From NCBI GenBank assembly GCA_016187565.1, contig JACPJR010000034.1, forward strand, positions 1 through 53,605: DNA of 53,605 bases, written 5' to 3'. This document shows positions 11,821 to 32,500 of the stretch, in pieces. Position 1 is the stretch's first letter, and each line of letters begins with the position of its first letter. A program made the position numbers and the translations under genes. The notes below the pieces were generated by a model. That model was not told where the DNA came from, made no database searches, and worked only from the letters and a program-made list of their open reading frames with translations. The stretch comes from Candidatus Woesearchaeota archaeon (GTDB lineage: Archaea > Nanobdellota > Nanobdellia > Woesearchaeales > JACPJR01).

Positions 11821-14800
11821 TTAGCTAGGGCTTACCACTGACTCGTTTTCTTCTTCACTCTTTTCTTTGTTTTCTTCACGGACTGAACCAAAGCTCAGCA
11901 GAGGATCTTCATTATCCGGATAGGAAAGGGTTGGATCCAGTAAAGGTTGTGAAGAGCTTTCTAAGCTACTTAATGACTTGACATAGATCAATTGAACAGC
12001 ATCGGCAAGGACATAACCATTGGCCTCATCGCTAACGAGTACTCCCTCAGTTTGGCTATTATCAAATTCATATTGGCCAAGGTAGATCCATTCATTTCCT
12101 AGTGTAGAGAGATTACGGATGATCCATGGAGAAACACCATTTCGATGATAGATTTGGTAGTGCGCATTCTTAGCCATAAGACCAAGATATTGATGCTCAA
12201 ATTTCCAAACATAGACATCATAGGTTGCGGGAGGAACAAGATCATCAACAAGCCATGCTGCTTTCTCTAGCCCTGTTCCTGCATCATTATAGCGAGTATT
12301 TCCTGCATAAGCATTCGTAATCGTAATAAGATTCCATGCGCCAGCAACAATAACAAATCCAGGATCTTTATTATCAACAATATAAACCAGAGGGAGATCA
12401 AGCACGGTTACATTCACCAGTTCACTCACCATGAATTCACCATCACTTACGGTAATTAAAAAGGTATAATTCCCTGCATCATCATAACTGGTATTCCAAG
12501 TAAAGACATTGTCCTGTTGTACAAAGCGGCTATCATTGATCATAAAAGAAAGGGTATCATTCTCTGGATCAGTAGCATTCACTTGTATCATTACTTGTTG
12601 GGTTTCATTAATGGTAATCGAGGAGAGTGGTTGGAGGTACGGTGGGCTATTTTGGGTCATATCAACAACAGTAATACTGATAACTTCTTGATCAGTTGCT
12701 GTCCCATCAGTGACATTAAAGGTAACAACATAGACACCAGAGTCATTACTTGTTGGAGTCCAGCTGAATTCGCCAGTTATAGCATTAAAGCTAACATCAC
12801 TGGGAAGTACTTCAGCAGCGTCAGTCCCAAAGACAAGGGGATCATTATCAGCATCAATTGCATGAAGCGCAAGGAAAAGAGTTTCTCCCTCAACAAGAGA
12901 TTGATTTCCAAGAGGATCTAAGACTGGAGCTCGATTACGGAACGAGGTCTTAATAAGGTGGTAGCTTTTCTGTGTGTTATAGTAATAAAGCTGGAGCTTG
13001 ATGAAATGGTTGATGTGATTACTTAAGAGATAAGTAATATCTTGCTGAAGATTTGCCGGATACACATTTTGTGTATCATAACTCGTGGCACTTTCAGTTG
13101 CATAATCATAGACCACAAGATTGGTTACTTCTTCTATTGGAGTAATTAAGAGTCGCTCATTCTCTCCAAAGAAAGTGTACATCTCTGAGCCCCAACTATT
13201 AAAAGGACCATCTGCACTGGGGTAAGCGCCTTCTTCAATACCACCGTCAGGGGAATATTTTACTAAGTGGAAATTTCGGAGCACATCATACTGATAAAGG
13301 CTTATCTGAACAAGGTGATTGGTAAACGCATCAAGATAAGGGGTGATGTCAAAGGTATCATAAGCATTCTGTCTACTGATGTTAATCCTTTTTTCAAATC
13401 CTCCATTGTAGTCATAAATCCGTATGTTATTAAATTGTTTTTCTGCGGCAACAACATAGCTTTCTCCTATCTGTGGAACCGTATACAATGAACTTGACCA
13501 GGAATAGAATGAACTTCCTGGCTGGTTACCATCAGCACCTTCAACAATGCCTCCTTCAGCAGTTCGTTTCACCAGATGGAAATTACGTTCAGTAGCACCA
13601 TTCAAGGCTTTGATCTGAATAAACTTATTTTCATATGCCGCAAGCAAAGGGGTAATGTCACGAAGCATGCCACGAGGAATGCTTGTTGGGAGATCATAAT
13701 ACTGCCAATATTCATCATCATAATCATAGACGCCAATTCTAGTAACCATACTGTCAGGTGCAATGGCCAATCGTTCTCCGTTTCTGAAGAAGGTAAACAT
13801 ATAGGAAGACCATAAGCTAAAGGAACTGCCATAGCTAGCATACCCACCTTCAATAAAGTCGCCACTTGCTGTTTTTTTAACGAGATGGAAATTTCGTGGA
13901 ATATTATTGAAATAAACATTGAGCTGAATAAGATGATTATCATATCGAGAAAGATTACTCAAGCGAGTAAGTTCAACAGCAGTTCCTCCATGATAATTCT
14001 GACCAAGAGGATAGGTGTAGGATTGATCATCGCTGTAATCATAAACGGTAAGTGTATTAAAGTAGTTATCAGCGGCAATAGTCAGTTCATCATTGGGTTG
14101 GAGAACCGTATACAAGTTGTTGGACCATGAATAGAAGGAACTGCCATAACCTGCTCCTGCTCCTTCAACAATACCGAGGCCATAGCTTTGCGCATCAATT
14201 GCTGGGCCTTCTAACCCAGCTTCAGAGGGGAAATACCCTTGCGTGTTTTCATCATCGTAATAAAAGCGATATGCTAGTGTTTGATTTCTATCAGTTACTG
14301 TTGGTAAATAAGTAAATGTAACCTGAGCTGGAGAATCTATGTTTTGTGTAGCAACTGTTTTCCACCAACCATTGGTTAAAATTTGGAGCGATAAGGTAAA
14401 AGGCCTCTCTTGTTCTGCAACAGTTAGTTCATAAGTAAATTCATCACCCCACCCTCCTTGCAAAGGCGTTACTGAAGCATTCAAAAATACCGGCGGCAAA
14501 CGCAAAGAAGGATTAGCTATTGTTGTTTTCACGAGATGGAAATTGTTCTTCTGTGTACCATCATAGATATTCAACAATATGAATGATCCTTTTTGTTCAG
14601 CAATGAAATTAGTGATGTCAATAAGCTTTGCAGCAGGATAATCGTTTCGTAAGGAATAATTAAACCAGGTATTCGTACGGTAATTAAAGATCTGGACCAT
14701 GTTTGTTGTTCTGTCTGGAGCAACAAGAATGCGCTCGTTTGTCCTAAAAAGAGTATACATATCCGAACTCCAACTATTGAACGGGCCATCGCCACTTGGG

Positions 14801-17800
14801 TAAGCACCTTCTTCTATTCCACCCTGAGGAGAATATTTGACCATGTGGAAATTACGCCATGTATCATACTGATAAAGACTAATACTCACGAGACGGTTAC
14901 TAAAAGAAGCGAGATAAGGAGTTATATCAACTGCTGCGTATGCTTCTTGTCTGGTAATATTAAATTGACGTTCATTGCCCGTAACATAATCATACACCCG
15001 TATATTATTAAAGAAATTATCCGGAGTAACGAAATAGCGCTCTCCTTGTTGGGCGACGGTATATAATATACTTGACCATGAATAGAATGAACTTCCTGGC
15101 TGGTTGCCATCAGCGCCTTCAACAATACCTCCTTCAGTAGTTCTTTTTACCAGATGGAAATTACGTTCAGTAGCTCCATTCAAGGCTTTGATCTGGATAA
15201 ACTTGTTTTCATATGCCGCTAGTAGTGGCGTGATGTCACGAAGCATACCACGGGGAATGCTTGTTGGGAGATCATAATACTGCCAATATTCATCATTATA
15301 ATCATAGACGCCAATTCTCGTAACTGTACTGTCAGGCGCAATAGCCAATCGTTCTCCGTTTCTGAAGAAGGTAAACATATAGGAAGACCATAAGCTAAAG
15401 GAACTGCCATAGGCAGCATAGCCGCCCTCAATGAAATCACCACTCTTGGTTTGTTTGATCATATGGAAATTTCTGTAGGTGGTATCATAAAACGCTTGGA
15501 TGGTAACGAGGTGGTCCTGATGATTTTGGAGAGCACCAGTAATGTCAATTTCTGTACCAGCAGCATAGGTCTGATTAAGCATGTATGAATAGGAGAGATC
15601 ATCAACCATGTCATACACTTGAATGAGATTAACCGTATCACTAGCTGCTATGATAAATTCATCTCCCTGCTCAACAACCGTATACAAGGTGTTTGACCAT
15701 GAATAGAAGGAACTGCCATAACCTGCTCCTGCACCTTCAACAATGCCTAAACCATAAGGAGTGTTATCAAGGACAACGCCTTCAAGTCCGATCTGTGATG
15801 GATAATATCCCTGCTGAACCGTAAGATTATTCCAGATTTCCGTATAGAAGAATCGATAACGTGTTGTTTGATTCAGGTCAACAGCAGTGAAATTATAGGC
15901 AAACGTGATATTTCGATCGGTACACCAAGAGCAAAGCAGACTACTGGTATTTCTCCACATCCCATTAGCGTATACTTCTAACGTGAGGTAAACATCTCCT
16001 CCCTCTCTATCCATCACTCGTGTCTGATAAAGATACTGATTGTTCCATGAGCCAGAAGGCGGAGTTACTTGTGAGTTTACAAAGGATGGTTTTTCATTTA
16101 TCTGAACCGGAAGTAATGGAGACGCACGATTGTTGGTCTCATTTTGTTCAGTAAATGTGTTCAGTGGATCAAGAACAACAATGATGGTGTGATTTCCAGA
16201 AACCAATGTCCAGTTGTTGAGATATTGTCCTGAAGGTGGAAGGATCACTGTTTGTGAGCTGTTTGGCGAAAGTAGTGGAACGACAAGTTCTCCAAGAAGC
16301 GACGATGATCCATTCGGAATATTGGGGAGATCATACACCAGAACAGGCACATTGGATAAACTTGCTGATCCTTTATTGTGGATGGTAATATTGATGGTTA
16401 CAAGCTGTCCCTGTACAGGTTCTGGAGTTGAAAATGAAACATCAGTATTACTGATCAAAAGATCAGAAAGGAGATTTACCGCAAATTCCTGACTGGCCCT
16501 ATTGTTGACTTCACTTTTTTCTTCAATAATGTTCAACGAATCAAGAACCACAGAGATCTCATGTAGTCCCTCACTGTTGTTCCATGGAAGAGAAGCAACT
16601 TTACGTAAACTTTGCTGTTGGGATCGTGGATCTAATGCTCCGGTGATAAGAGCAGCATCGCCACTCCATCCACCAACATCTTGACCATAATCACCATTTG
16701 ACCACTCAAGATTTCCTTCGGAATCGTAGATGTAGATCCATCCTGATTTGTCCCCAATCATCAATTCACTATCGCCATCATTGTCATAATCTCCAAAAAG
16801 AGGAGACGTAGGATTTTCCTCTAAAGATGGCAGTTTAATGTCTCTTTCAAGAACATAGCCATCATTACCATCAGATTCGTAAACCCACACATGCCCATCT
16901 TCATCCAAAGCACGAGAAGATCCAATTGCTATCTCGTCTTTTCCATCTCCATCCCAATCAGCAATGCTTGTTGGAGAGAGATGTCGACTAAATCCATTTT
17001 CACCTGGCAGACTCATCCATTCTTGACGGTAGTATCCTGCGGAAATGTATTGATAGACAAACACTGCACCTTTGTTATTTTCAGCGTAATGATCACGATC
17101 TCCTGTCCATATTTCAATGTTCCCATCATTATCAGTATCACCAAGGGCAATTCCCTGAAGATATCCGCCAAGATCTTCGCTTACCCATTCTCGCACATAG
17201 ACTCCATGATCATACCCATACACCTGAAGCTTTGCATTAGTATCACGATATTCATTAAAGATAATCTCCATGGTTCCATCATTATCGACGTCTTCAACAG
17301 CAAGCGAATGAATGTTCTCTGTATCTTCTGCTATGAATGTGGATTCCCGGATAAAGGTACTTCCATTCCATCCCCAGATTTCAATTTCATCAGGGCTTGG
17401 TCCTTGATCAGCAATGATCATTTCAGCAATCCCATCATTATCGACATCGCCGATGGTAATTCCTCCTTCCGAACTTAGTCTATCCACGGTTGCATTAAAC
17501 ATATTTACTAAAGGATAAGCTCCAGGGTATCTGAAAACATAAAAGGTACTCGTACCTCCACAGGAGAAAATAAGTTCAGGATTCCCATTACTATTAACAT
17601 CACCAAGTGCAAGTGCATTACACCAATTACCTGGATTATAGCTCCACAATGTTGTCTTATTCACCGGATCTATAATCGTAATCCCATTCGCATAGCTGCC
17701 TAAAATAAGTTCGCTATTTCCATCCCTATCCAAATCAGTGTTGCTCTTAAACCAAGGTTCGCTATCAAGTTCCTCAACTATGCTCCTTCCGATCAATGTT

Positions 17801-20800
17801 CCATTCTCAGGAGTACCATCATAAAAGTCAAGTGAGAGGTTATAGGCAGTATCTCCGCCATTGTTCGCAACAGTAGCCAAAAGCACACCAGTTCCTGGTA
17901 CAATCAGCTCAGGCCCGAGTATCAGCTCTGGTTCAACCAGTGCATACTTTCTCACAACCAAAGCATCAATCCAGCCCGTGTCAGATCCTGCTGTTGTATT
18001 TGCATTTTTCTCGTAGGCAAATCTCAGAGTTTTTAGTCCTTCAGTCAGGCCCTTGCTCACCTTTGTCCACGAAACTGTTCCTGAAATGCGCTCTTCATAG
18101 CCACCTATTCGACTGCATGAGATATTCTGCACACAATAATAGAGGAAATCTTGGTTCTGTTCAGAAGAAACTGACCAATAAAAGACAAGAGATGCAGGCA
18201 GGGAAAGATTCAACTGCTTCTCAATCCATGAAATTTGTCTATCAGCAATATCATTATTCCCTGAGGAGAAATTTCCTTCATATTTGGTGGAGCTGTATTT
18301 TCTCCAATAGGGTGAGACACTTCCTCCCAATGTCCAATAGCTTGTATTAATCGGGCCTTCTTCCCAATTCTCAAAGATATCAAAAACATCTTTTCCATTA
18401 CTTTGACCAGTTGCCGAATTATTCCCGTATGAGAGAGCAACGGTCAAGGTACTGTTGGCAGAGAGGCGAGGGATTTTAAACCAAAGACGAGTATTATTGG
18501 TATTACATCCTGACTCAAGCCAATAGCTTAATGGCTGGCCTTCCATAGTCGCTATTCGTAGATCACCACAATCTTGACGTAGGACATCCCTACTTACAAG
18601 GGTTGCTGTATCCAAAGAAACAGCTACTGGATAGTCAAGCAAATCACGGCCCGAGATCTCATGCAATGTTACTATCCTTTGGAGCAAGAACATTCCCTGA
18701 ATGTCCCTTGCTTTTAGCGAAACATCAGGAAGAATTGAAAACAGCGTGGTAACTTGATTATTACTTTCATTTTTTTCAGTAATTTCATATAAGGGATCAG
18801 CAAAGACAGTAATGTTATGATTTCCTAACGAGACATTAGACCAAGCTATAGGAACAGAGACCTCTTCTCCTGGACGTAGCTTGGTGATTATTACGGTACC
18901 AATGATCGTTCCATTTTCCATACTTCCGTCATGGGCACGGACTCTAACATAAGGAGCATCTCCCTGACCGGAGTTACGAACTCTTGCTCTGATAACCGTT
19001 GACTCACCAATAAGGAGATCCGGATTTGAAAATTGAAGATCAGCATCAATGGTTAAATCTGGCAAGGAAGAATTCTGCATTTTGGTGTTTACTTTAATCA
19101 GATGATAACTCTTTTGACTACGCTGATAGAACACCTGAAGCCGTATAAAATGCTGTGTATGTTCTCTAATTATTTCTGTTATATCCACTAATGCATATTT
19201 CGGATAAACATTTAGAAGACTATAGTTGTACCATTGATTCGAGGAGTAATCATACAGGTACACTCGGTCAATAAAGTCATTCGGTGTAATAAGGATTCTC
19301 TCATCTTCTCGCAAGAGGGTGGAGAAATCAGTACTGTATCGAGAAAATGATCCACTATCATCAGGGTAAGCGCCTTCAACAATGCCTCCAGCCGGACTTA
19401 CTTTAATCATATGGAAGTTACGATCGGTTGAGAACTGAGCTGCCTTAATTTGAACGAAACGATTAGCATAAAGCTCTGAGGCTTTACTGATATCAATGAC
19501 TTCACCAGGTCCATAGGTTCTGTTCAGACGGAACTCTTCCCAAACATTAGTGATATAATCGAGAATTTTAATTCTGTCAATAGGATCCGGTCCTGCAATG
19601 TAAACTTGATCTCCTTTTTGTGGGGTTGTATACAGGTAGGTATACCATGAGTAGAATGAACTCCCCGGTTGGTTGCCATCAGCACCTTCAATGATTCCTC
19701 CCTGATTGTTTCTCTTGATCAAATGGAAATCTTTTTGGTTATTATCATCATACACTTGGATCTGGACCAATGCATTTTCATACTCTCGTAAGGTTTTGGA
19801 GATTTCCACTAATCGTTGTGCAGATGCAGTTTCACCAAGGAAGTAATATCTCCATTGGCCACTACTGAGATTATATACACCAACCTTGTTAATGTCAGCT
19901 TTCGGTGCAACATACAGACGGTCGTCTGGCAATACCATAGTGTAAGCATACCCCTGCCAGTTAGTAAAGGATCCACCGTAACCGGGATATCCTCCTTCTT
20001 GGATTGCACCTGTTTCAGTCTCTTTAAGCATATGGAAAAGCTTGACACTGCTTTGAAACATCACACGAAGCCTGAGGAAATCATCAAGGTGATGTTGAAG
20101 GAAAGGTGTAATATCAATCTCCATCCCTTTTTGGTAAATCCTACCTAGTTGATAAGTAGAGGTATTATCATAATAATAATCATATACTTCCAGGGTGTCA
20201 ATAGGTTCACTGGCAACAATAAAGATACGGTCATTTGTCTGAATAGCAGTGTAGAGATCATCATCCCAGGTGTAAAATGAACTGCCATAGCTTGCTCCTC
20301 CTCCCTCAACGATACCTCTCCCATAGCTACTGTTATCAATGTAAGGACCAAGAGTGCCATCAAGACTAAGATAATAACCTTGGCTATCATTTTCAGAAAA
20401 CAAGAAACGATACTGTGTTGTTTGATTTCGATCAACAGGAGTGAAGGTGTGATTAAAACTAACTATTCCTCCACGAGTGAACTGAGTTGCTACCTGTTGC
20501 CATTGATTATTAGTCAGAATTTGGAGGCTGAGATTCATACCTTCTGCATGAGGAATTGCCTCAACCGTGTAGGTATAGTCATCATTCCAAGATCCAGAAC
20601 TTGGAAAGACAGATGCATTCTGGAGAATGGACGTTTCATTAGAGGCCTGTTGCAACAAAGGAACTCGCTTAATAAGATGATAATTCTTTTTGCTTGCACC
20701 AAAATAGGTTTGTATGGTTATGAGATGATTTTCGTGGTCTAAGAGATAAGAGGTAATGTCCATAATCTGGTAAGCAGGATATGTATTAGAGAGCGTGTAA

Positions 20801-23800
20801 CTATACCATTGATCGTCACTGTAGTCATAGATCTGAAGCAGATTGATAGATTCATCAGGAGCTAAAAGCAGACGTTCATCCTTTCCAAAAAAGGTAATTA
20901 AGTCGGAAGACCAAGAACCAAATGAAGCATCAGTGTTTGCATAACCACCTTCAACCATACCCCCATTCGGTGATTTTTTAACCATGTGGAACATGCGAGC
21001 AGCACCATCTCTGAGCGCACGGATTTTTATGAGGTGAGTCGTATGATTCTCAAGAAAAGGGGTTACATCAAGACTCATACCACGCTTTGTGGTCTCATTT
21101 AATGAATAGGTATAAGCACGATCATATCCGTAGTCGTAAATCTCAAGCGTATTTACCGTGCTATTCGGAGTTACGTACAGTGTATCACCGACAAGAGGCA
21201 CAGTATAGAGTGCAGTTGACCAAAGCGAGAATGAACCCCCTTGTTGAGATCCCTCTGCACCTTCTACGATACCGCCTTGCTGAGATTTTTTGATCATATG
21301 GAAATTTGTTTCAACATCATCCTGAAGAACTTTAATCTGAACAAAGTGATCAGTAAGACCTACTAGATAGGAAGTGATCTCAATAGCTTTTCCCCGAGGT
21401 AAGTAGGTAGCGTTTGCACCTGCACCGGCATCACCAATGTTAATAAGGTCAGCATAATACCACTGATCATTGGCATAATTGTATATCCCGAGTTTATTGA
21501 CAACACTATCAGCAACAACATACAACCGCTCTCCAGGAAGAAAGAGCGTCTGCGCAGTTGTATCCCATGAAGTAAATGCATTTCCATACCCTCCATAAGC
21601 TCCCTCTACCATCCCACCTTCCTTGGTCGTCTTGACCATATGGAAACTCCGCTGAAGCGTTTCATAAAAAACCTGGATCTGGACGAAATGGTTCATATGC
21701 GCTTGTAAAGGTAGGGTAATGGATGTTCGCTCTCCTCTCAATGAGGTAGCATTCAAACGATAATAGAACCACTGTTCACTCAAGTAATCATAAACAGCAA
21801 TGCGATTTATTGAATCTGAAGCAGTTACGAAGAATTCATCTCCCTCTTGAACAAGCGTGTATAATTGATTAGACCACGAATAAAATGAGCTGCCATAAGT
21901 TGCTCCTGCACCTTCAACAATACCAAGCTGATTGTCCTCATCATTTATTTGAGGGCCATCTAATCCAGGCTTTGAAGGGAAGTAACCACTATTGATAACA
22001 CCACTGGAGTAATTTTGACTACGAACCTCGTCACTATAGAAAAAGCGGAACTTGAGGGACTGGTTTCTTTCTACTGGTGTAAAGGATGGAGAAAAGGTAA
22101 GTTCCTGCATTTGACCACAGGCTCTACAGGTCAATGTACTTATATTCTGCCACCACTGGTTTGCAAAGATCTGGAGCAAGACTTGGACATTATCAGCCTC
22201 TGGATCGGTTACATTAACGGTAAAGGTATAGGTATCATCCCACGAGCCATTTTCGGGAGAAAATGAGGGATTTATGAACACTGGAGGAAGATCTTCAGAA
22301 ACATTAATCAAACGACGAGCAACATTATTGGTTTCATTGATCTCATTGATGCGGTTATCAGGGTCAACAGACACATACACTTGGCTTGTCCCGTTAGGGA
22401 GGCTGGGTTGTACGATAATAGATAAATTAACCTCTCCCTGTGCAGGAATTAACTCGAGAGTTCCCGCACCTATTGAAATATTCAATGAAGGGTCTCCCTT
22501 GAAAAGGCCAACAGGTACAGAAGAAACATTCGATGTGCCTGTATTGTGAATCGTTGCTGTAACCCACAAAGGTAAACCCTCTCGTGGAGTCTCATTTGAA
22601 AAGAAAATATCTGACGGTGTAAGGGTAAGATCAATGTAATCAAAATCAGTTGTCTTAGTAAAATCAACCCATGTTGTGCCATTAATAGATGCTTCAACAT
22701 TAATGCTTCTGCCTGTTCCCGCATATACCCCATTGACGACCATGTTCCAGTCAGTGGGATCATCAATATTAACGGTATACGTTCCTGAATCAAGCATGGG
22801 AACAGCGTAATCACCATTTTCATCCGTAGCATAAAATGGCGTTTCAAATCCTGAAAGATACACTAATTCATCTGAAACACCTCCACCGGATTGGTTGATT
22901 ACTCTGCCTGCAATAATAGCAGCATATTCGAGCACTGAATCAACCAAGGTAACTTGATCCTCAGCGACGGTAATGTATCCAGCGCTATTCTTAAGGGGAG
23001 TCTGAACCGGAGGAATAATATCAATGGTATATGCTCCTGGAATAACTCCAGTGAAGTTATAAGTTCCATCTTGTGTGCTTACTACTGAATAAGAGTTTGA
23101 TCCAGCCATTTGGATACGTGCTGCAACAACAGGGCTTCCATTAAGGGCTCGAACCATACCTCGAACCATCCCACCTGAAGGTAAGGAGATGTTGAGATAC
23201 GTTATGGAACGAAGGGATATCATCGTTTGATTTGATACTGACAAGAAATTACTTCCTTCGGGAGGAAGAGCAATAAGGGTGTACGTTCCATTAAGAAGAT
23301 TCGATAAGGTAAAGAGTCCATTCTCATCAGAAGTTACTGATTGTGACGTTCTTCCCAAAGCACGAAGTGTAGCATTCGGTATGGGCACATTATTTTCATC
23401 AAAAACAATACCGCTGAGATTACCTCCTGCTTGGAAACTGGTAATATTATATATCCTTGTTTGATATGGCTGGTCTTCATTATCGATTTCTTCTGGAATT
23501 GAAAGAACAAGACGAGTAAGGTTGAATGATCCAGAACCAGCGGCAGCAGAAAGTAACATACCATCAAATTGCAAACTCAGACCATATATTCCTCGAGGTA
23601 AGAATGAAGAGTTCGCTCCACTTGTGAGATACTTCCCCTTTTGATCATACAAGATACCAGTAAGGGTATAATTTCCTGCTTTGGTTACGTTGATTCCAGT
23701 TTTTACAATAAGGACATTGTACAGAAGATCTCCATCACTATCTAATCCATAGTCCTGGTAATTTCCTATAAAAAATGCAGGAGGCCGTTGGAATGCCGTG

Positions 23801-26800
23801 TAGTTATATGCAGAAGTTACTGCAGGACTTGTTTCTCGGCTAACTAGAACACCATTTTGATCAAAGAGACGAAAGTTACGCAAGGTATAGGGGCCGTTTA
23901 GAGAATACTGCCAAAAGGTATAACCATTAAAGTATAGGGTGACATTACGGATGCCTTGGTCAAGATATACAACTGCTGATGCGTCAGCAATATGTTGTTG
24001 ATCTTTGAATAAACTTCCCACAAGGGTATAATTCATTGGCTCACTTATGTTTACCAAAACATCAGTAGCAAGATAATTAGAGAGATTATCTCGGTCGTTG
24101 TCTATTAATCGAATACCTGATATGTTCATGCCTTGAACAATGACTACGGTGGTGGTAGCAACATTATTACCCTCATCAATCTCCAAAAGTCTGTTGTCTT
24201 CATCAAGTATTGTAGTAATCTGATGCATTCCCTTTGTTGTAATCCAGGAGAATGAAATTGGCGTGTTGTTATTAACCATCAATGAGGAAAGGGTTGTATT
24301 CAAAAGAAGTCGTGTTTCTGTACCAAGAGTACCGTCAGCACTAGTTTTACTTAAAGAGTCTGCCACTAAAGAATCTACTCCTGAAGAACCCTGTGCCAAA
24401 GAACTCTCCGAGATCTCATACGTATCATAGACCAAGATACTGATATCGCGGGCAAGAGCATTACCCTTGTTCAGCAGAGAAAGGGTTATGGTCTGATTTC
24501 CTTCAGCAGTATTCGCAAAGAGTATGTCTTCTGATGTTACAACAAGATCAGCAAAAACTTTACTGACACCTCTCGCTTGGTTATTGTTTTGATTTAATTC
24601 TTGCAATGTTGCCAAAGGATCAATAACACCATAGACGGTTCGGAGGCTTTCATTCAGTGATGATACATTCCATAGAACCGAGATAGTTGTAGAGTGGTTA
24701 GCATCAAGCGAAGGAAGGTTATTTTCTGCAATGAGGTGATCATCACTTATGTTGCTATCATAGAAACGGACAATAACCGGGGATGCAGTAATTGTTCCTA
24801 TATTTTCTATTTTTGCGCTTACATTAATTGTCTGATTCTCCAAATACGTCACGTGAATTGAGGATAGAACAAGATCTGGAAGGATAATAAAGGTGTTTTG
24901 TTCATTATTGGATTCATTTTGCTCAATGATACTATCATATGGATCGACAACAAAACGAAGAAGATGCGACGCGTTGAGAAGTGGTATGGTCCAGTCAAGA
25001 GAAAGAGTGATGTTCACTCCTGCTTGCAACATACTGATGTTTTTTTCTTCTAAAAGAGTCATATTATCAAAGAATGCCACACTAATATTTTCTACAAGAA
25101 GATCACCAAGATTGGTAATGGTTGCATTAAAAGAAACTGTCTCTCCGAGCTCTGGATTTTCGTTTGAAGAACGTAGACCCTCATCCAGAATACCAACATC
25201 AGTATACCGTTCATGGTTAAGAACATAGAGATGGCTTGCATTAAAATGTGGCATGGGAAGCGTGATATTGGTTCCCTCGAAGGTTTCATTGACGATAGTA
25301 ATGTTTGTTTTGAGATAGGATGTCCATATCATACCAGCAGAATCAATTCCTAAAGTCATTGCAGATTCAATCTCATGATCATGAGTTAGCTGTTTCTGAG
25401 TGCTCCAGTAATTATAGCGTGGATCATAGACAGAGTAAAAAAGGTCTAGTCCTTGCTCAGAAAGGCTTTCCCACATTGCCACAAAACGATCTCCTCGATC
25501 TGGAGCAACACGAAGTTCATTTATTCCTGTAGAAAACGTAGTTATTTGTTGTGGCATTGACCAGTTGTCATACTGACCTTGGTACTGAGTGAAGAAAAGC
25601 CGTTGGATCGTTGCATTGGTGGTAAGATTAAGCTCATTTATTGCCCAAAGAACATCTGCATTGTTTTTCGTATCATAGAAAACAACAGGCATTACATCCT
25701 CATAATTATTAACGGTTAATTGACGGGGCAATGACCATGTTTTTTTGTAACTTGCAAAGAAAAGTTCTCTGTCCTGCTGACTAGTAAGATTTCCATCCGT
25801 GTCTTGAGACCAAACAAGCAAAGCATCAGTTCCATTAAACCCAAAGCTTGGTCGAGCATCTATACCGATGCCATGGAGAGCTAGGCTTGGTGTTGTCCAG
25901 TTGAATCCATTCCAAAATGTAGCGTAAACATCTTCAACAAAAGGAATATCTTCTCCGATAAGACTAATGTTATTATCGGTGTCTTGTATCCACAGAAGCA
26001 TGAGATTTCCCTCAGTGTCAGACGCAAGAGAAGGAAGAAAATCAAGGACATTGTTCTGCGTTAAAGCACTCGGTTCACTCCATTGTAGGGTTGTAGGATC
26101 AAAGAGGGCATAATAAATTTCTAAGTACGGGAAGGTTTCAGTAGGTGTTATGTTAACAGGCAGATTTTCGTTAGCAATAACGGTCCATACAGCAATTCCT
26201 TTACCATTTTGATCAAAGCTGACAACTGGTCCAACATCAGTAATAGTGTTATTAGTTATAAAAGAGGCATTACTCCATGAAAGACCATTCCACGAGGAAT
26301 ACTGTAATTCAAAGCTCTGGGAGAGATTTTTTGCAGGATCATCATAAACCCAGACCAGGAGTTTTGAGTCATTCCTACTTACTGCAAAGGATGGGTTTGC
26401 ATAGGGAAATATGTTTTCGATAATACTTGTTTCAGTTGTCGAGCCAGAAGTGTCAGTAATCGTTTTCAGCTCAGTTGCCCTGAATAAAGAGTAATCATGA
26501 TGGATATATTCTCGTTGGAGTGGAGTCCATGCACTCACATCACTGTCATAAAAAAAGCCAGCAAGTGTTTCTGGATACTTCCATGACCATACCCAGCGCA
26601 TTTCCTCACTCACCCACATATAGGTTACTTTAGCCCTTACCCATAGTTCAGCAAGAAATTCTTTTAGATAATCACACCCATTGCAAAACTGGAAAGTTCC
26701 TGAGGGTTTTCCTCCCAATCCTCCTTCAACTTGTGCAAGACCTTCAGTACCAACACGAGCAACCCCTTCAACAGAAGAACCTGTATGAACTTCTCCAGAC

Positions 26801-29325
26801 TTAAAGTCAAGTGGCATATCAGGACCTGATGCACCCCATACTGCTCCGCCCCCAAGCTCTGGCTGAATAATAACAGCAAATTCTGCAATCCACCAATTCC
26901 ATGGATATTCAAACGAAGTCCAACCAGTAACGTCAATTCCTAATTCATCAAGGTAAATTTGAGGGCTGAGGTTTAACTCACCTGAGGCCATGATGTCAAT
27001 GCCCATTTCCCGTTTTGGACTTGTTCCACCAACATCTACTGAAACCGTTCCTCCTCCCTCTACAAGCCCTAATCCTAAAGTGTTGTATGCAGCCTTACCC
27101 TCTACGTCCAGCTTCAATCCATATGCCCCACCAATAATCGGAATCTGCTCGGGAACGTCAAATGCTACATCAACTGCTGGATCAGGAAACTGCATGTGGA
27201 AGAACTCAAAGATAAGACCATTATCATAAAGTGTAAAGGGAGGATAAAATGCTGGTGTTGGTGAGTAGGTCATTAACCATGTATGAACACCTGTCGTATA
27301 GACCATGGAGACATAAGGCTCTGAACGTACTTCTTCTCCATCAATGATTTCAGTAGCAACCACTTCTAGCCAGTTCTCACCCAAGACAAGATCAAGCCCG
27401 GTGTCATAACTTTGGGTAGCTGCATAGTCTCCTAAAGGAAGAGGACTGCCGAGACGAGCAGGTTGGGAAATAGTTACTCCGTTAAGCGTATATTCAATAC
27501 GAAGGGGTGCTGCATCTTGCTGTGTCCACTCTACATATGTATCAAAATTATTGATGGCACTGACGGCATACATAAATGCTCCTGTATAGCGTGATTTTAC
27601 TGCAGTAATCTTTGGTTTATGACGAGTAATCTGTACTGAAGTTTGTGCAGGAGCATACTCACTTGCTGAACTTTCCATATGTGCAATACCTTCTTGAGTC
27701 ATGGAAAGAAATGATGCTCTTGCACTACCATTTTCATCAGTGATTGCTTTCTGTGGTAAAAGTATGCCAAGAGGTTCCGGAGAAGTTATTTCTGCAAATG
27801 TTACCATTACACCGGGCTTTGCAATTTGAGCACCATGTAGATCTTTTAATTGCGCAACAATGGTACTGGTACTATTAATAGATACCTGAGAAGGCTTAGC
27901 ATTGAGTGAAATAAATGCTGACGAATTTATTACTATCAAGAATGAATCACTTACCTCAAAACTAGTAGGTTGGGGCCAGCAAGTTCCAGAACATGCCCTT
28001 CCCGTTGCAAGAATAGTGAAATTATGATCATTGTTAGTAGGTTCGGGAATAACCACGTTTATATCAAAATAACGCTGACCCGTGCCAGACATAGAAGCTC
28101 TTCCAAGATAATGCCAATCTATATCACTCTCATATTTTCCAAAAACCGTGAAATAATACGCAGGGCAGGAAACCATTCCATAATATTGAAGATGAATACT
28201 TACCGTTTCGCTAGGAAAAGCACTTTCTGGTCCATTTGCATCAAATCCTGAAATATAATATCCGTCAATAATAGGATTATCGCTGTTTTTAGAGGTATCA
28301 CATCGCCAGCCTCCAAGCGTTAACTGTAGTCCCCGTGTTCCTGTACCTCCTTTTTCTTCGATGTAATCAAGAAATTCTTTAAACACCGTAAAGCGTTCAG
28401 TATCGCCAGCTATGATTGATGGATGAACAACAACAAAGAAATAATGTTCCCACATCGTTATCTCATCATAACGTTTCTTGAGCAACGTAAGATATTCTTG
28501 CGCAGTAGACGAGTGTGCTTGAAATCCAAAAGAGGAGGTCTCAAATGGACCTTTTAGGCTTCCCTTTAATCCTAAATATAATTCATCGGGTGGAGAAAAT
28601 AAACATACCTGACAAGTAACATTGTTGGTTTCATTCTGAGGAAAAAAATAGGTATCAACTAAGGGCACTTCACGATTATTCGTTTGAATGGTTGAGATAG
28701 GCATAATCAAGAAATTATAATCAGTGTAATAAGGAAAACGGTAACTGTCTGTTGTAGCAATGAAGCCTGTATTCATTTGAAAATCAAGATCTTGAAGGGC
28801 CTTAAAGGTATCCCTATTCTGTTGAAACTGTTGTGGCCTAAATTCTCGATACGGAAGCTGAACACCAAGCGCATCTTCAATAGCCATGAGCGAACGATTA
28901 ATGCGTTCACGCTGGGTAGGATAATCAAACAAGGTAAGATCCTCTCCCTTTTGCCAACCGCCAACAGCAATTTTATGTCCTCGTGCATACACTTCGCGTA
29001 CAGTGTCTGGATGACGTGAGGCAAACTCTCCAGTAACATACACCGGAACACGCCATTCATGTTCTTCCACTACATCAAGAAGTTGAAAAATATATTCATT
29101 GTCTAATTCATCCTCCAGATCAACCTGAATAGTCACATACAGCGGCTTGTGGTCAGGACTTTCGAGAAAAATAATGGTCTCGTTTGAAAGTGCTAACAGT
29201 GGAGGTGGAACAGCGGTTGTATAGGTCTGTGCAAAGGCTGAGGGAATGATGGTAAGAAAAAAAACTACAATTAATAGCGTACAAAAAAGATCATACTTTG
29301 CTAAATACTTCCTTAATCTATTCAC
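11821..29325 (-). CDS. Giant secreted multidomain repeat protein, about 5834 aa
   Basis: The GTG at 29325 follows GGGGGTTTG, so I prefer it to the in-frame GTG at 29340. A signal peptide ends near AFA-Q (residue 32). Order, by base: degenerate NodB-like deacetylase domain (29150-28330); a cysteine-containing domain shared with the neighbouring giant protein (28310-27920); bacterial Ig-like domain; W-rich beta-propeller (26450-25290); three CARDB domains (25200-24150); two modules shared with the neighbour; three carboxypeptidase-regulatory-like domains (23420-22660); CARDB; two repeat blocks (22300-19085); CARDB; DUF2341 (18680-17930); FG-GAP propeller nested in a CARDB (17910-16470); CARDB; two more repeat blocks (16105-12925); two cadherin-like domains; a golvesin C-terminal-like domain (12395-11970); an acidic tail. 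There are many N-glycosylation sequons and no C-terminal membrane anchor. Probably a surface fibre or adhesin; this role is inferred from the domains. Confidence 0.92.
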   Translation of the reverse strand: MNRLRKYLAKYDLFCTLLIVVFFLTIIPSAFAQTYTTAVPPPLLALSNETIIFLESPDHKPLYVTIQVDLEDELDNEYIFQLLDVVEEHEWRVPVYVTGEFASRHPDTVREVYARGHKIAVGGWQKGEDLTLFDYPTQRERINRSLMAIEDALGVQLPYREFRPQQFQQNRDTFKALQDLDFQMNTGFIATTDSYRFPYYTDYNFLIMPISTIQTNNREVPLVDTYFFPQNETNNVTCQVCLFSPPDELYLGLKGSLKGPFETSSFGFQAHSSTAQEYLTLLKKRYDEITMWEHYFFVVVHPSIIAGDTERFTVFKEFLDYIEEKGGTGTRGLQLTLGGWRCDTSKNSDNPIIDGYYISGFDANGPESAFPSETVSIHLQYYGMVSCPAYYFTVFGKYESDIDWHYLGRASMSGTGQRYFDINVVIPEPTNNDHNFTILATGRACSGTCWPQPTSFEVSDSFLIVINSSAFISLNAKPSQVSINSTSTIVAQLKDLHGAQIAKPGVMVTFAEITSPEPLGILLPQKAITDENGSARASFLSMTQEGIAHMESSASEYAPAQTSVQITRHKPKITAVKSRYTGAFMYAVSAINNFDTYVEWTQQDAAPLRIEYTLNGVTISQPARLGSPLPLGDYAATQSYDTGLDLVLGENWLEVVATEIIDGEEVRSEPYVSMVYTTGVHTWLMTYSPTPAFYPPFTLYDNGLIFEFFHMQFPDPAVDVAFDVPEQIPIIGGAYGLKLDVEGKAAYNTLGLGLVEGGGTVSVDVGGTSPKREMGIDIMASGELNLSPQIYLDELGIDVTGWTSFEYPWNWWIAEFAVIIQPELGGGAVWGASGPDMPLDFKSGEVHTGSSVEGVARVGTEGLAQVEGGLGGKPSGTFQFCNGCDYLKEFLAELWVRAKVTYMWVSEEMRWVWSWKYPETLAGFFYDSDVSAWTPLQREYIHHDYSLFRATELKTITDTSGSTTETSIIENIFPYANPSFAVSRNDSKLLVWVYDDPAKNLSQSFELQYSSWNGLSWSNASFITNNTITDVGPVVSFDQNGKGIAVWTVIANENLPVNITPTETFPYLEIYYALFDPTTLQWSEPSALTQNNVLDFLPSLASDTEGNLMLLWIQDTDNNISLIGEDIPFVEDVYATFWNGFNWTTPSLALHGIGIDARPSFGFNGTDALLVWSQDTDGNLTSQQDRELFFASYKKTWSLPRQLTVNNYEDVMPVVFYDTKNNADVLWAINELNLTTNATIQRLFFTQYQGQYDNWSMPQQITTFSTGINELRVAPDRGDRFVAMWESLSEQGLDLFYSVYDPRYNYWSTQKQLTHDHEIESAMTLGIDSAGMIWTSYLKTNITIVNETFEGTNITLPMPHFNASHLYVLNHERYTDVGILDEGLRSSNENPELGETVSFNATITNLGDLLVENISVAFFDNMTLLEEKNISMLQAGVNITLSLDWTIPLLNASHLLRFVVDPYDSIIEQNESNNEQNTFIILPDLVLSSIHVTYLENQTINVSAKIENIGTITASPVIVRFYDSNISDDHLIAENNLPSLDANHSTTISVLWNVSSLNESLRTVYGVIDPLATLQELNQNNNQARGVSKVFADLVVTSEDILFANTAEGNQTITLSLLNKGNALARDISILVYDTYEISESSLAQGSSGVDSLVADSLSKTSADGTLGTETRLLLNTTLSSLMVNNNTPISFSWITTKGMHQITTILDEDNRLLEIDEGNNVATTTVVIVQGMNISGIRLIDNDRDNLSNYLATDVLVNISEPMNYTLVGSLFKDQQHIADASAVVYLDQGIRNVTLYFNGYTFWQYSLNGPYTLRNFRLFDQNGVLVSRETSPAVTSAYNYTAFQRPPAFFIGNYQDYGLDSDGDLLYNVLIVKTGINVTKAGNYTLTGILYDQKGKYLTSGANSSFLPRGIYGLSLQFDGMLLSAAAGSGSFNLTRLVLSIPEEIDNEDQPYQTRIYNITSFQAGGNLSGIVFDENNVPIPNATLRALGRTSQSVTSDENGLFTLSNLLNGTYTLIALPPEGSNFLSVSNQTMISLRSITYLNISLPSGGMVRGMVRALNGSPVVAARIQMAGSNSYSVVSTQDGTYNFTGVIPGAYTIDIIPPVQTPLKNSAGYITVAEDQVTLVDSVLEYAAIIAGRVINQSGGGVSDELVYLSGFETPFYATDENGDYAVPMLDSGTYTVNIDDPTDWNMVVNGVYAGTGRSINVEASINGTTWVDFTKTTDFDYIDLTLTPSDIFFSNETPREGLPLWVTATIHNTGTSNVSSVPVGLFKGDPSLNISIGAGTLELIPAQGEVNLSIIVQPSLPNGTSQVYVSVDPDNRINEINETNNVARRLINVSEDLPPVFINPSFSPENGSWDDTYTFTVNVTDPEADNVQVLLQIFANQWWQNISTLTCRACGQMQELTFSPSFTPVERNQSLKFRFFYSDEVRSQNYSSGVINSGYFPSKPGLDGPQINDEDNQLGIVEGAGATYGSSFYSWSNQLYTLVQEGDEFFVTASDSINRIAVYDYLSEQWFYYRLNATSLRGERTSITLPLQAHMNHFVQIQVFYETLQRSFHMVKTTKEGGMVEGAYGGYGNAFTSWDTTAQTLFLPGERLYVVADSVVNKLGIYNYANDQWYYADLINIGDAGAGANATYLPRGKAIEITSYLVGLTDHFVQIKVLQDDVETNFHMIKKSQQGGIVEGAEGSQQGGSFSLWSTALYTVPLVGDTLYVTPNSTVNTLEIYDYGYDRAYTYSLNETTKRGMSLDVTPFLENHTTHLIKIRALRDGAARMFHMVKKSPNGGMVEGGYANTDASFGSWSSDLITFFGKDERLLLAPDESINLLQIYDYSDDQWYSYTLSNTYPAYQIMDITSYLLDHENHLITIQTYFGASKKNYHLIKRVPLLQQASNETSILQNASVFPSSGSWNDDYTYTVEAIPHAEGMNLSLQILTNNQWQQVATQFTRGGIVSFNHTFTPVDRNQTTQYRFLFSENDSQGYYLSLDGTLGPYIDNSSYGRGIVEGGGASYGSSFYTWDDDLYTAIQTNDRIFIVASEPIDTLEVYDYYYDNTSTYQLGRIYQKGMEIDITPFLQHHLDDFLRLRVMFQSSVKLFHMLKETETGAIQEGGYPGYGGSFTNWQGYAYTMVLPDDRLYVAPKADINKVGVYNLSSGQWRYYFLGETASAQRLVEISKTLREYENALVQIQVYDDNNQKDFHLIKRNNQGGIIEGADGNQPGSSFYSWYTYLYTTPQKGDQVYIAGPDPIDRIKILDYITNVWEEFRLNRTYGPGEVIDISKASELYANRFVQIKAAQFSTDRNFHMIKVSPAGGIVEGAYPDDSGSFSRYSTDFSTLLREDERILITPNDFIDRVYLYDYSSNQWYNYSLLNVYPKYALVDITEIIREHTQHFIRLQVFYQRSQKSYHLIKVNTKMQNSSLPDLTIDADLQFSNPDLLIGESTVIRARVRNSGQGDAPYVRVRAHDGSMENGTIIGTVIITKLRPGEEVSVPIAWSNVSLGNHNITVFADPLYEITEKNESNNQVTTLFSILPDVSLKARDIQGMFLLQRIVTLHEISGRDLLDYPVAVSLDTATLVSRDVLRQDCGDLRIATMEGQPLSYWLESGCNTNNTRLWFKIPRLSANSTLTVALSYGNNSATGQSNGKDVFDIFENWEEGPINTSYWTLGGSVSPYWRKYSSTKYEGNFSSGNNDIADRQISWIEKQLNLSLPASLVFYWSVSSEQNQDFLYYCVQNISCSRIGGYEERISGTVSWTKVSKGLTEGLKTLRFAYEKNANTTAGSDTGWIDALVVRKYALVEPELILGPELIVPGTGVLLATVANNGGDTAYNLSLDFYDGTPENGTLIGRSIVEELDSEPWFKSNTDLDRDGNSELILGSYANGITIIDPVNKTTLWSYNPGNWCNALALGDVNSNGNPELIFSCGGTSTFYVFRYPGAYPLVNMFNATVDRLSSEGGITIGDVDNDGIAEMIIADQGPSPDEIEIWGWNGSTFIRESTFIAEDTENIHSLAVEDVDNDGTMEIIFNEYRDTNAKLQVYGYDHGVYVREWVSEDLGGYLQGIALGDTDNDGNIEIWTGDRDHYAENNKGAVFVYQYISAGYYRQEWMSLPGENGFSRHLSPTSIADWDGDGKDEIAIGSSRALDEDGHVWVYESDGNDGYVLERDIKLPSLEENPTSPLFGDYDNDGDSELMIGDKSGWIYIYDSEGNLEWSNGDYGQDVGGWSGDAALITGALDPRSQQQSLRKVASLPWNNSEGLHEISVVLDSLNIIEEKSEVNNRASQEFAVNLLSDLLISNTDVSFSTPEPVQGQLVTINITIHNKGSASLSNVPVLVYDLPNIPNGSSSLLGELVVPLLSPNSSQTVILPPSGQYLNNWTLVSGNHTIIVVLDPLNTFTEQNETNNRASPLLPVQINEKPSFVNSQVTPPSGSWNNQYLYQTRVMDREGGDVYLTLEVYANGMWRNTSSLLCSWCTDRNITFAYNFTAVDLNQTTRYRFFYTEIWNNLTVQQGYYPSQIGLEGVVLDNTPYGLGIVEGAGAGYGSSFYSWSNTLYTVVEQGDEFIIAASDTVNLIQVYDMVDDLSYSYMLNQTYAAGTEIDITGALQNHQDHLVTIQAFYDTTYRNFHMIKQTKSGDFIEGGYAAYGSSFSLWSSYMFTFFRNGERLAIAPDSTVTRIGVYDYNDEYWQYYDLPTSIPRGMLRDITPLLAAYENKFIQIKALNGATERNFHLVKRTTEGGIVEGADGNQPGSSFYSWSSILYTVAQQGERYFVTPDNFFNNIRVYDYVTGNERQFNITRQEAYAAVDITPYLASFSNRLVSISLYQYDTWRNFHMVKYSPQGGIEEGAYPSGDGPFNSWSSDMYTLFRTNERILVAPDRTTNMVQIFNYRTNTWFNYSLRNDYPAAKLIDITNFIAEQKGSFILLNIYDGTQKNNFHLVKTTIANPSLRLPPVFLNASVTPLQGGWGDEFTYELTVAEQERPFTLSLQILTNGWWKTVATQNIDSPAQVTFTYLPTVTDRNQTLAYRFYYDDENTQGYFPSEAGLEGPAIDAQSYGLGIVEGAGAGYGSSFYSWSNNLYTVLQPNDELTIAADNYFNTLTVYDYSDDQSYTYPLGQNYHGGTAVELTRLSNLSRYDNHLIQLNVYFNNIPRNFHLVKKTASGDFIEGGYASYGSSFSLWSSYMFTFFRNGERLAIAPDSMVTRIGVYDYDDEYWQYYDLPTSIPRGMLRDITPLLAAYENKFIQIKALNGATERNFHLVKRTAEGGIVEGADGNQPGSSFYSWSSSLYTVPQIGESYVVAAEKQFNNIRIYDYNGGFEKRINISRQNAYDTFDITPYLDAFTNHLVQISLYQYDVLRNFHLVKYSPDGGIEEGAYPSADGPFNSWGSEMYTFFGENERLLITPIEEVTNLVVYDYATESATSYDTQNVYPANLQQDITYLLSNHINHFIKLQLYYYNTQKSYHLIKTSFRNRAPVLDPLGNQSLVEGETLFLALHAIDADNDPLVFGTDAAEVLPSDVSFNAITGEFSWTPTSNDSGVYVVTFNVTDGTATDQEVISITVVDMTQNSPPYLQPLSSITINETQQVMIQVNATDPENDTLSFMINDSRFVQQDNVFTWNTSYDDAGNYTFLITVSDGEFMVSELVNVTVLDLPLVYIVDNKDPGFVIVAGAWNLITITNAYAGNTRYNDAGTGLEKAAWLVDDLVPPATYDVYVWKFEHQYLGLMAKNAHYQIYHRNGVSPWIIRNLSTLGNEWIYLGQYEFDNSQTEGVLVSDEANGYVLADAVQLIYVKSLSSLESSSQPLLDPTLSYPDNEDPLLSFGSVREENKEKSEEENESVVSPS
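12925..14505 (-). repeat. Repeat block 4: lead-in domain plus four ~95-aa modules
   Basis: Lead-in (FLNASVTPLQGGWGDEF ... TVTDRNQTLAYRF) then four modules opening 'GIVEGAGAGYGSSF', 'GDFIEGGYASYGSSF', 'GGIVEGADGNQPGSSF' and 'GGIEEGAYPSADGPF'. It is the C-terminal block, followed directly by two cadherin-like domains. Confidence 0.88.
14515..16105 (-). repeat. Repeat block 3: lead-in domain plus four ~95-aa modules
   Basis: Lead-in (SFVNSQVTPPSGSWNNQY ... TAVDLNQTTRYRF) then four modules. It is offset from block 4 by 1578 bases (526 codons) at aligned sites. Its second module and the start of its third are nearly identical in DNA to block 4 (about 15070-15430 against 13490-13850), indicating recent duplication or gene conversion. 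Confidence 0.88.
19085..20625 (-). repeat. Repeat block 2: lead-in domain plus four ~95-aa modules
   Basis: Same architecture as block 1, directly following it: lead-in (SVFPSSGSWNDDYTY ... TPVDRNQTTQYRF) and four modules opening 'GIVEGGGASYGSSF', 'GAIQEGGYPGYGGSF', 'GGIIEGADGNQPGSSF' and 'GGIVEGAYPDDSGSF'. Modules end in FHMLK, FHLIK, FHMIK and YHLIK. It is the most diverged of the four blocks. Confidence 0.85.
20660..22300 (-). repeat. Repeat block 1: lead-in domain plus four ~95-aa modules
   Basis: The block encodes a lead-in domain (PPVF...GSW...TPVERNQSLKFRF, ending in GLDGPQ) and then four modules. Each module runs from an EGG/EGA turn through SFYSW, LYT, IAVYDY and DITxxL to FHMIK/FHMVK. 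Alternation of 'GIVEGAG', 'GMVEGAY', 'GIVEGAE' and 'GMVEGGY' openings marks positions 1-4. This is the N-terminal block of the giant protein. Confidence 0.85.
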
Positions 29326-29340
29326 GCAACAAACCCCCAC

Positions 29341-29576: not shown

Positions 29577-29585
29577 GTGGTAAGA

Positions 29586-32500
29586 ATGGATAAACTGTTC
29601 TCTGAAAGAGCATATCCTATTTCGATGTTAAGGAAAAAAACTTTTTTCTCACTTTTAATTTTAATGATTCTGATGATTACTGTTCTTACTATCACTGCTG
29701 AAATTGATACTGTTGACCGGAATGGAAATGAAGGACTACAAGACGGAATCCACGAAAAAAAGATTCTCCAACAAAATGCCTACCAACAATTTTCAGAAGT
29801 CTTACCCTCGAAAGCTATATTGCCTCAAAAAAACGGAGTATGTAACAGACATGACAGAGACATTCTTCCTCCTTTCAACAGCAACGCTGACAACGACACA
29901 GAAAGAATCTATAGCTCAGTAGATGAAATACAGCAAAGAAAGTTAACAACAAATATCATAAATCTCCAAATTGATCTTGAAGATGAACATGATGCGAATA
30001 TATTACCAAAACTCTTAGAGATGCTGCAGTCAGAAAAGGTATTAGTAACATTTTTCTTCACGACTGATTTTATGCAGGCATATCCCGAAGCAATCACAAC
30101 AATTATGGATGATGGACATTCTATTGGTTTACTTATTACTGAAGATATCTCATTGATGAGCTATGAAAGACAAGAAACGTTCATGGCTCAGAAACTAGCA
30201 GTGTTAACAGAAGTTACATCGTTTCCATCAGAGAAGATCGTGAAGCATATAAAAATTAAGTTATTAACACAGAATGCAGACACCTACCTTTTAATGAAAA
30301 AAATGGATGTTCAGTATCTTACGAGTCAGTTTAATGATCCTGCACTCTGTGAAATCAATGATGGAGAACTCCAAGGAAGTTGTGGATATTGTCAAGCACT
30401 TAAGGGAAAGATTACGCATGTTTATCCAACGGTTTATGGATTCTGGGCAGTACCAGTATCTTCAATATCAATGTCCTCTGAAGGAAGCGAAGATAAAATA
30501 GTTCCACTCATGCAAGAAGAAATAGCTGGCACCTTCTTCGATACTGTCTACCAAACCTATAAAACAACCGTCGCGACGCAAGAACACGTTGCACTGCGAT
30601 TTATTACTGCATCACTGAAAGCATCTGAAGCAATAACAGAAAAAGAAGAGTTTCATGAATTGACGGTGAATGTCAGGGCATCAGGAGGGCTGATTAAGCC
30701 ATTTCAAGAAGGCCTTCTCCTGTCAGATGAGCAAAATGATATTTCCTCACTCAATATCACCGGTGGACCACGAGGAATCTGTGGTAGTCAAAATATCACT
30801 GGAGGGAGTAACAATACCTTTGACATAACTGTTGAATACACAAATGCACTGTACTGCCCAACCTATTATTTTCGTATCTATGGAAAACTCCCGGAAGAAC
30901 AAGAATGGGATCTTTTAGGCGAATATCAAGAATTTTCCTCACTCGGAACGCACAGTTTTACGCAGACTGTTACGACACCACCTCTTGTGTCCAACAGTAC
31001 ACATTACGAAGTTATGGTCGTTGGCCAAGACTGTAAAGATGGTCCCTGTTGGCCAACACCAATTTCCTACCAGATGAAAAGTTCAGCAGAAATACCCTTG
31101 TATGATTTTCAAATAATTAATATTAGTATTGAAGGAACAAGCAGCAAAAATAATCCAGAAACAGGAAACATTGTTACGCTTTCAGCAAACCTAAAAGGAG
31201 CGCCCTATGCATTAGTAAGTTGGACTGTTGAATCAGTGGGAAGCAGATTGACAACCTCACCTCATGGATCCAGTAAAGCTCACCAAAATTTACCTATAGC
31301 TCCACAAAACACCGGTAACCCTCTCAAATATACGCCGAACATTGATACTCATGGTGCAAAAACAGTTATAGCCAAAGTAACGTGGAAACAAGCTAATGTT
31401 ACCTGTCAGCAAGAAATGGAAAAAAATGCCCTTTTGTATTTCAAAAAGGATGGAAGTGATTATAATGCATTTAATGGTGATCCCAATTGGTTTGGGTATT
31501 GGTCACTGCATGATGATCAAGCAGTTACTGCTGAGGGCTTTGATCACCAAAATGGGTATTTTAAATATGATCCCGGCTATAATGGGTGGGGATATACTAA
31601 TTTTCAAAGTATATCGTTAGGTAAACAAGCACCGCTTGGATGTGGAAAAAATGGTGGTTTTTTTTCCTTTCCTAGCATGGGGATTTCTATAGATCATACA
31701 GGCTCAGATTGTGTTTCGTTAACCCTCGGGCATGAAACAACGCATGTTGATGTGTATAACAACTGGCTTCCTGGCGGGATTTGGAACGGAAGACCGGATA
31801 CAGACTGTGATGGAATTCCTGACATTGAAGAAGCAAGTTTGCAGGGTTTTGATCCGAATTCTCCAGATTCTTCTCAAGGAAATTATTTTATCAGTGGAAG
31901 TACGACCGTCCATTTTCTCAAACCAGATCCTAATCATCCATGTGCAGGAAGTAGGGTTAAATCAGTAGATGGAGAGATTTATGCTGATCTAAAAGGCCAG
32001 GTCTTGCATAGCACCTACAGTCGAGACTGGGCACAGCCAGGGAAACAATCCATACCTGCTTATCGAAGAATATCACAAGAAACAGGAAATAATGCAACCT
32101 TTACTGGCTTATTCCGAGATTTTGGTCTCGATACCAACCTTAACCAATTATTTGACGTTCTCACCCTCGACGCTGGAGTTGATGTTAGGTCAGCAGGAAA
32201 CTACTCTTTTGAGGCTTTACTCGTAGACCAGAAAGGACAAAAGTTTGGTGCACAGCCTTTGTTGATTTACTTGGAAGAAGGTAACCAAACCATTCAATTA
32301 TCATTTGATGGACAAGCCCTACGAAAGGCAAACGTTAATGGAACCCTTAACGCAACAGTCCGCTTATTCGGTGATAATCTTGAAGAGACCACTACGATCA
32401 ACACGGGAACATATCAAGCCGTACAGTTCGAATGGTTACCGGCTGAAATCCTCGGTATAACACAAGAGACTACACCTGATCAGAATACTAACTCGCTTTA

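Follow-up and report, generated by a model that had tools for sequence, protein, structure and literature searches.

Host-dependent archaea are believed to contact other cells through giant surface proteins, and to our knowledge the binding parts of such archaeal proteins are mostly unnamed. The window analysed here, a contig of 53,605 nucleotides from a Candidatus Woesearchaeota archaeon, encodes one giant protein with a highly repeated module. What is this module, how did its array arise, and what might it do on the cell?

Module array of the giant protein

The N-terminus of the giant protein carries a single hydrophobic signal-like segment, and no further transmembrane-like segments were seen in its 5839 amino acids; the protein is presumably located at the cell surface. 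Pfam domains along its length included NodB-like, CARDB, CarboxypepD_reg, DUF2341, FG-GAP, Big_9 (Ig-like) and Golvesin_C. Between 12949 and 21927, sixteen modules of 99-110 aa each (typically ~99) were delimited. They are arranged in four blocks, each composed of one lead-in domain and four modules (a 1+4 block). Blocks 1 and 2 adjoin, as do blocks 3 and 4, with ~1000 aa of other domains between the two pairs. Modules are named by block (B) and position (M).

11821-29340, minus strand: gene of the giant exported protein (open reading frame, 5839 aa from the first GTG)
28774-29112, minus strand: NodB-like polysaccharide deacetylase domain (Polysacc_deac_1; Pfam E 1e-10)
21943-22302, minus strand: block 1 lead-in (alignment, E 1.1e-44)
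21631-21927, minus strand: module B1M1
21289-21618, minus strand: module B1M2, with an 11-residue insertion
20977-21276, minus strand: module B1M3
20668-20964, minus strand: module B1M4
20335-20652, minus strand: block 2 lead-in (alignment)
20023-20319, minus strand: module B2M1
19714-20010, minus strand: module B2M2
19402-19701, minus strand: module B2M3, opening with EGADGNQPGSSF
19093-19389, minus strand: module B2M4
16105-19092, minus strand: spacer between the block pairs, with CARDB, DUF2341, FG-GAP repeats and CARDB (Pfam)
15769-16104, minus strand: block 3 lead-in (alignment)
15454-15750, minus strand: module B3M1
15145-15441, minus strand: module B3M2, 97% identical to B4M2
14836-15132, minus strand: module B3M3
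14527-14823, minus strand: module B3M4
14194-14502, minus strand: block 4 lead-in (alignment)
13876-14178, minus strand: module B4M1
13567-13863, minus strand: module B4M2
13258-13554, minus strand: module B4M3
12949-13245, minus strand: module B4M4
11986-12381, minus strand: Golvesin_C (PF25275), the C-terminal domain (Pfam E 9e-19)

Pairwise identity among the sixteen modules ranged from 24 to 97%. Residues E5, G6, F15 and T24 were invariant in all sixteen, as were the histidine and lysine of an FHxxK motif, and W18 was nearly invariant. In a 24-row alignment that also contained the modules of L018, a relative described below, E and F were still invariant, with W, T, H and K conserved at >90%. 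The layout of sixteen modules and four lead-ins in the original prediction was confirmed. A profile built from three blocks recovered each of the four modules in the block left out (E 1.8e-24 to 6.7e-38); the best score across 200 shuffled copies of the protein, taken as the chance control, was 7.8 bits.

The position of a module within its block had also been proposed to be conserved, and this was borne out. Mean identity between modules of different blocks was 46.1% at the same position versus 34.4% at different positions, and none of 5000 permutations of the position labels was as extreme, either with all pairs or after removal of the B3-B4 pairs (0/5000 in both cases). The opening EGADGNQPGSSF, predicted for the position-3 module of three blocks, was found in blocks 2, 3 and 4. 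The repeats and their positional identity are far beyond chance. One pair stood apart: B3M2 (15145-15441) and B4M2 (13567-13863) shared 97% protein and 91% DNA identity, whereas the remaining same-position pairs of blocks 3 and 4 shared 44-70% protein identity. This pair was thus likely homogenised, with local gene conversion as the likely route, or is under an unusual separate constraint at position 2.

The protein resembles the giant surface proteins of other DPANN archaea in its thousands of residues, its export, its Ig-like arrays and a proposed role in host contact. Among these are the SPEARE-type proteins of nanohaloarchaea, which pair an Ig-like stalk with a VirB4/TraG-like ATPase domain (PMC10266531). 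Unlike the SPEARE type, the 5839-aa protein had no ATPase domain detectable with Pfam, and it combines a NodB-like N-terminus with a 1+4 module family that is otherwise unseen.

Fold and family of the module

A family match was accepted at a score above the curated cut-off or at E below 0.001. Searches of Pfam, NCBIfam, PHROGs and PDB sequences returned only short matches below this threshold, in agreement with the earlier failure to place the module in a named family. As judged from these sequence comparisons, it belongs to no family named in the libraries. AlphaFold models of a single module (24 sequences) reached a pLDDT of 92-98 across most of residues 21-103, and a 524-aa block (six sequences) was modelled with a mean pLDDT of 88.3 and a pTM of 0.79. 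Every module in the block model was built from seven or eight strands plus a single short helix located at the DIT motif. The module fold is accordingly a confidently predicted small beta-sandwich, and both the beta-rich character and the structural regularity anticipated for the array were clear in the models. The block scores suggest that the modules hold a defined relative arrangement and are not loose beads. The first 15 residues, which contain the EG motif, were disordered when the module was modelled alone; in the block their order improved and they added a strand. This segment therefore probably packs on the neighbouring module.

Structure comparison yielded no close counterpart. For the single module, Foldseek found no PDB match below E 0.02, the best TM-scores being about 0.5, and no match below E 0.005 in the BFVD viral structure library. 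Weak matches included cupins, double-stranded beta-helix proteins, small jelly-roll proteins and one beta-glucuronidase. The DIT...L...N..I.I pattern of the modules presumably recalls sugar-binding jelly rolls, and jelly-roll or galactose-binding-like carbohydrate modules are likewise small beta-sandwiches, but neither structure nor sequence comparison gave a significant match to them. An NxIxVYDYxxxxW stretch weakly matched Kelch proteins among the PDB sequences (E 0.012-0.03), and Pfam Kelch_6 appeared in one of 24 modules (E 0.022), which would fit a Kelch-like or other beta-propeller with two blades per module. However, these matches span just 19-28 residues, each module is modelled as a small beta-sandwich of its own, and the 50 best structural matches contained no propeller. 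The propeller reading was rejected on these grounds and is highly improbable.

The best balanced structural match of the module was the Anabaena sensory rhodopsin transducer (ASRT; 2ii7), whose topology is an eight-stranded beta-sandwich, with TM-scores of 0.51/0.56. Sugar binding is predicted for the ASRT/ASRAH superfamily (PF07100), whose published extracellular versions come solely as dyads or tetrads, and the extracellular ASRAH tetrads were described as fused to amidases (de Souza, Iyer and Aravind 2009, PMC2739507). The modules could thus be divergent ASRT/ASRAH domains, in which case each four-pack would make up a pseudo-tetramer within one chain, comparable to the ASRT tetramer of Thermotoga. 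Both are beta-sandwiches of ~100 aa in tandem extracellular tetrads with EG at the first strand, their folds being weakly similar at a TM of about 0.5, and each block in the window and in L018 contains four modules, the tetrad number of extracellular ASRAH domains. Moreover, both solo ASRT proteins and subtilases with tetrads of an ASRT-related repeat of ~101 aa, likewise opening with an EG motif, were found in Chloroflexota genomes. Three such subtilases (L051, L053 and L057) carry the tetrad at the C-terminus, with a WYFAEGST repeat ~101 aa long as its unit.

Against this assignment, the Foldseek E-value was about 0.06, and hhalign gave a probability of 0.1-0.6% against both ASRT and the tetrad relatives, while the positive control, the solo ASRT family against the Chloroflexota tetrad family, gave 97.4%. 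The two defining residues of the superfamily, a strand-1 tryptophan and a near-invariant strand-2 asparagine, were absent from the modules: only one of 24 (L018:916-1233) started strand 1 with tryptophan, the others having mostly I, M, F or L, and no asparagine column was conserved at the end of any strand preceding the YDY strand in the 24-row alignment. The modules furthermore possess FHxxK and DIT motifs, which ASRAH domains lack, and a lead-in domain of their own. No PF07100 match was found in the window's genome. ASRAH membership was rejected because the profile comparison failed despite a working positive control, and we consider it improbable. With no profile match and two defining residues missing, the modules cannot be filed under ASRAH, though by analogy they may work like its tetrads.

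A single relative and the history of the blocks

About 2000 genomes were searched, together with 84,980 species in a pattern scan and collections of viruses, phages and plasmids. The pattern scan was queried with the block alignment and reaches close relatives only, so that the distribution found is a lower bound. No modules were detected elsewhere in the window's own genome, in 98 other genomes searched as relatives, or in the viral (three scans), phage and plasmid collections. A profile search in other DPANN genomes, which the original prediction had suggested, gave nothing convincing in samples of the same order, class and phylum; the phylum and class samples returned one chance-level match, from the phylum search (G161, L017), taken as chance with its E of 0.003 and internal stop.

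A single relative, L018, emerged from the pattern scan of 84,980 species. It is a contig of 4590 bp from the metagenome-assembled genome CSMAG_200, which is labelled Dehalococcoidia. CSMAG is the naming used for genomes in a published catalogue from cold seeps (PMC10491686). The single open frame of L018 encodes a partial M4, two complete packs of a lead-in and four modules, and a third lead-in followed by M1 and a partial M2. Profiles of the window modules and the L018 modules matched with a probability of 100% (E 5e-43). In the second full pack, the third module carries an inserted domain of ~117 aa (L018:3052-3420). This insertion sits in the loop before the module's helix, a loop that evidently tolerates a whole domain, and its similarity to a phage baseplate plug in Pfam was weak and did not reach the cut-off (E 0.004). 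No module was found in other genomes of L018's class (393) or phylum (216). The contig had a GC content of 50.4%, whereas four of the five bin contigs sampled lay at 43-45%, and its tetranucleotide correlation with the sampled contigs was 0.36-0.65. As the composition of L018 differs from that of most sampled bin contigs, its bin host is doubtful.

In a whole-block tree, the blocks of the window and those of L018 fell on opposite sides (support 100/98), indicating that the blocks multiplied independently in the two lineages from a 1+4 ancestor. In the single-module tree, the position labels required 7 changes versus 14.8 after shuffling, and none of 500 shuffles was as low. All seven M4 modules from the window and L018 formed one group (75/88, 70% of bootstraps). 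Together with the shared lead-in, the block tree and the M4 grouping are most simply read as one ancestral 1+4 block whose positions were likely already differentiated. An AU test of all window modules as one clade gave p 0.19, by which an independent origin of the modules in the two lineages is not rejected. Both the position test and the 1+4 layout of L018 support the earlier proposal that whole blocks duplicated once the four-module unit existed.

We infer that the ancestral block passed between the lineages. The same 1+4 pack on a contig binned as bacterial suggests that whole surface-binding units may be traded between very distant lineages. A more specific scenario is that the 1+4 block is a new intramolecular pseudo-tetrameric binding unit, in which four non-equivalent modules of a new beta-sandwich family close on one another beneath the lead-in, and that it moved whole between archaeon and bacterium in sediment and then multiplied separately. 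We regard this scenario as rather unlikely.

Glycosylation, binding and related proteins

N-glycosylation sequons were distributed unevenly along the giant protein. The lead-ins contained 18 versus 6.0 expected (threefold, P 6e-5) and the rest of the protein 107 versus 44 expected, whereas the modules showed no enrichment (14 versus 13.4 expected). In a protein that is exported and glycosylated, this contrast between lead-ins and modules suggests that module surfaces are kept clear of glycans and that the modules probably form the exposed part that binds, which fits binding better than a passive stalk. The contrast could instead reflect a recent arrival of the modules, though the enrichment is seen in the lead-ins belonging to those very blocks.

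We favour, at roughly an even chance, the interpretation that the modules are a new extracellular beta-sandwich family carried four at a time on a giant surface protein that is exported and probably N-glycosylated, with binding as their presumed function. A beta-rich (Ig-like) lead-in would present four modules, which have position-specific identities and would pack on one another in a defined way, each 1+4 block being a unit of folding and duplication. The modules would most likely attach to a repetitive ligand outside the cell, such as a glycan, an envelope polymer or a partner surface, and four blocks would offer sixteen sites and high avidity. One block of ~515 aa represents a small expressible target with which the binding partners of such an archaeon could be sought.

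Alternatively, the modules may be spacers that lengthen the protein without a ligand, as in many Ig-like arrays. Their high copy number and the richness of the protein in spacer-type domains (CARDB, Big_9) agree with such a passive stalk, as do the Foldseek matches of the block model to chains of beta-sandwich domains (LILR, alpha-2-macroglobulin, C3). The LILR and alpha-2-macroglobulin matches, although significant in Foldseek, were rejected as homology, with TM-scores of 0.11-0.19 over the domain string. However, neither position-specific conservation nor near-invariant polar E, T, H and K together with W and F would be expected in a pure spacer, sequon enrichment is missing only in the modules, and the model predicts that the block forms a defined assembly (pTM 0.79). 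We therefore consider a passive stalk unlikely and prefer binding.

The NodB-like domain of the giant protein contains GHKIAVGGW, as read by eye, where the metal-binding histidine motif is expected. With this motif seemingly lost, the catalytic motifs appear degenerate and the domain is probably not an active deacetylase. A divergently transcribed neighbour (29577-36113, plus strand) encodes a 2178-aa protein with NosD/beta-helix repeats. It has a NodB-like start and a 'CPxYYF..GK' region in common with the giant protein (24-28% identity), and on this resemblance the two are evidently a head-to-head pair of paralogous surface proteins. The NodB-like domain of the paralog likewise looks degenerate by eye. 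Another genome of the order encodes a 3336-aa relative of the giant protein's N-terminal region (L072:2706-12716, plus strand), whose NodB-like start is 30% identical over 430 aa and is joined to ThuA-like and subtilase domains. A module search of that genome gave no match. Because this relative shares the NodB-like start in a genome that gave no module match, the modules look like one interchangeable payload within a family of giant surface proteins. In the window itself, a subtilase gene (3-1448, minus strand) lies ~10 kb from the giant protein and is cut by the left end.
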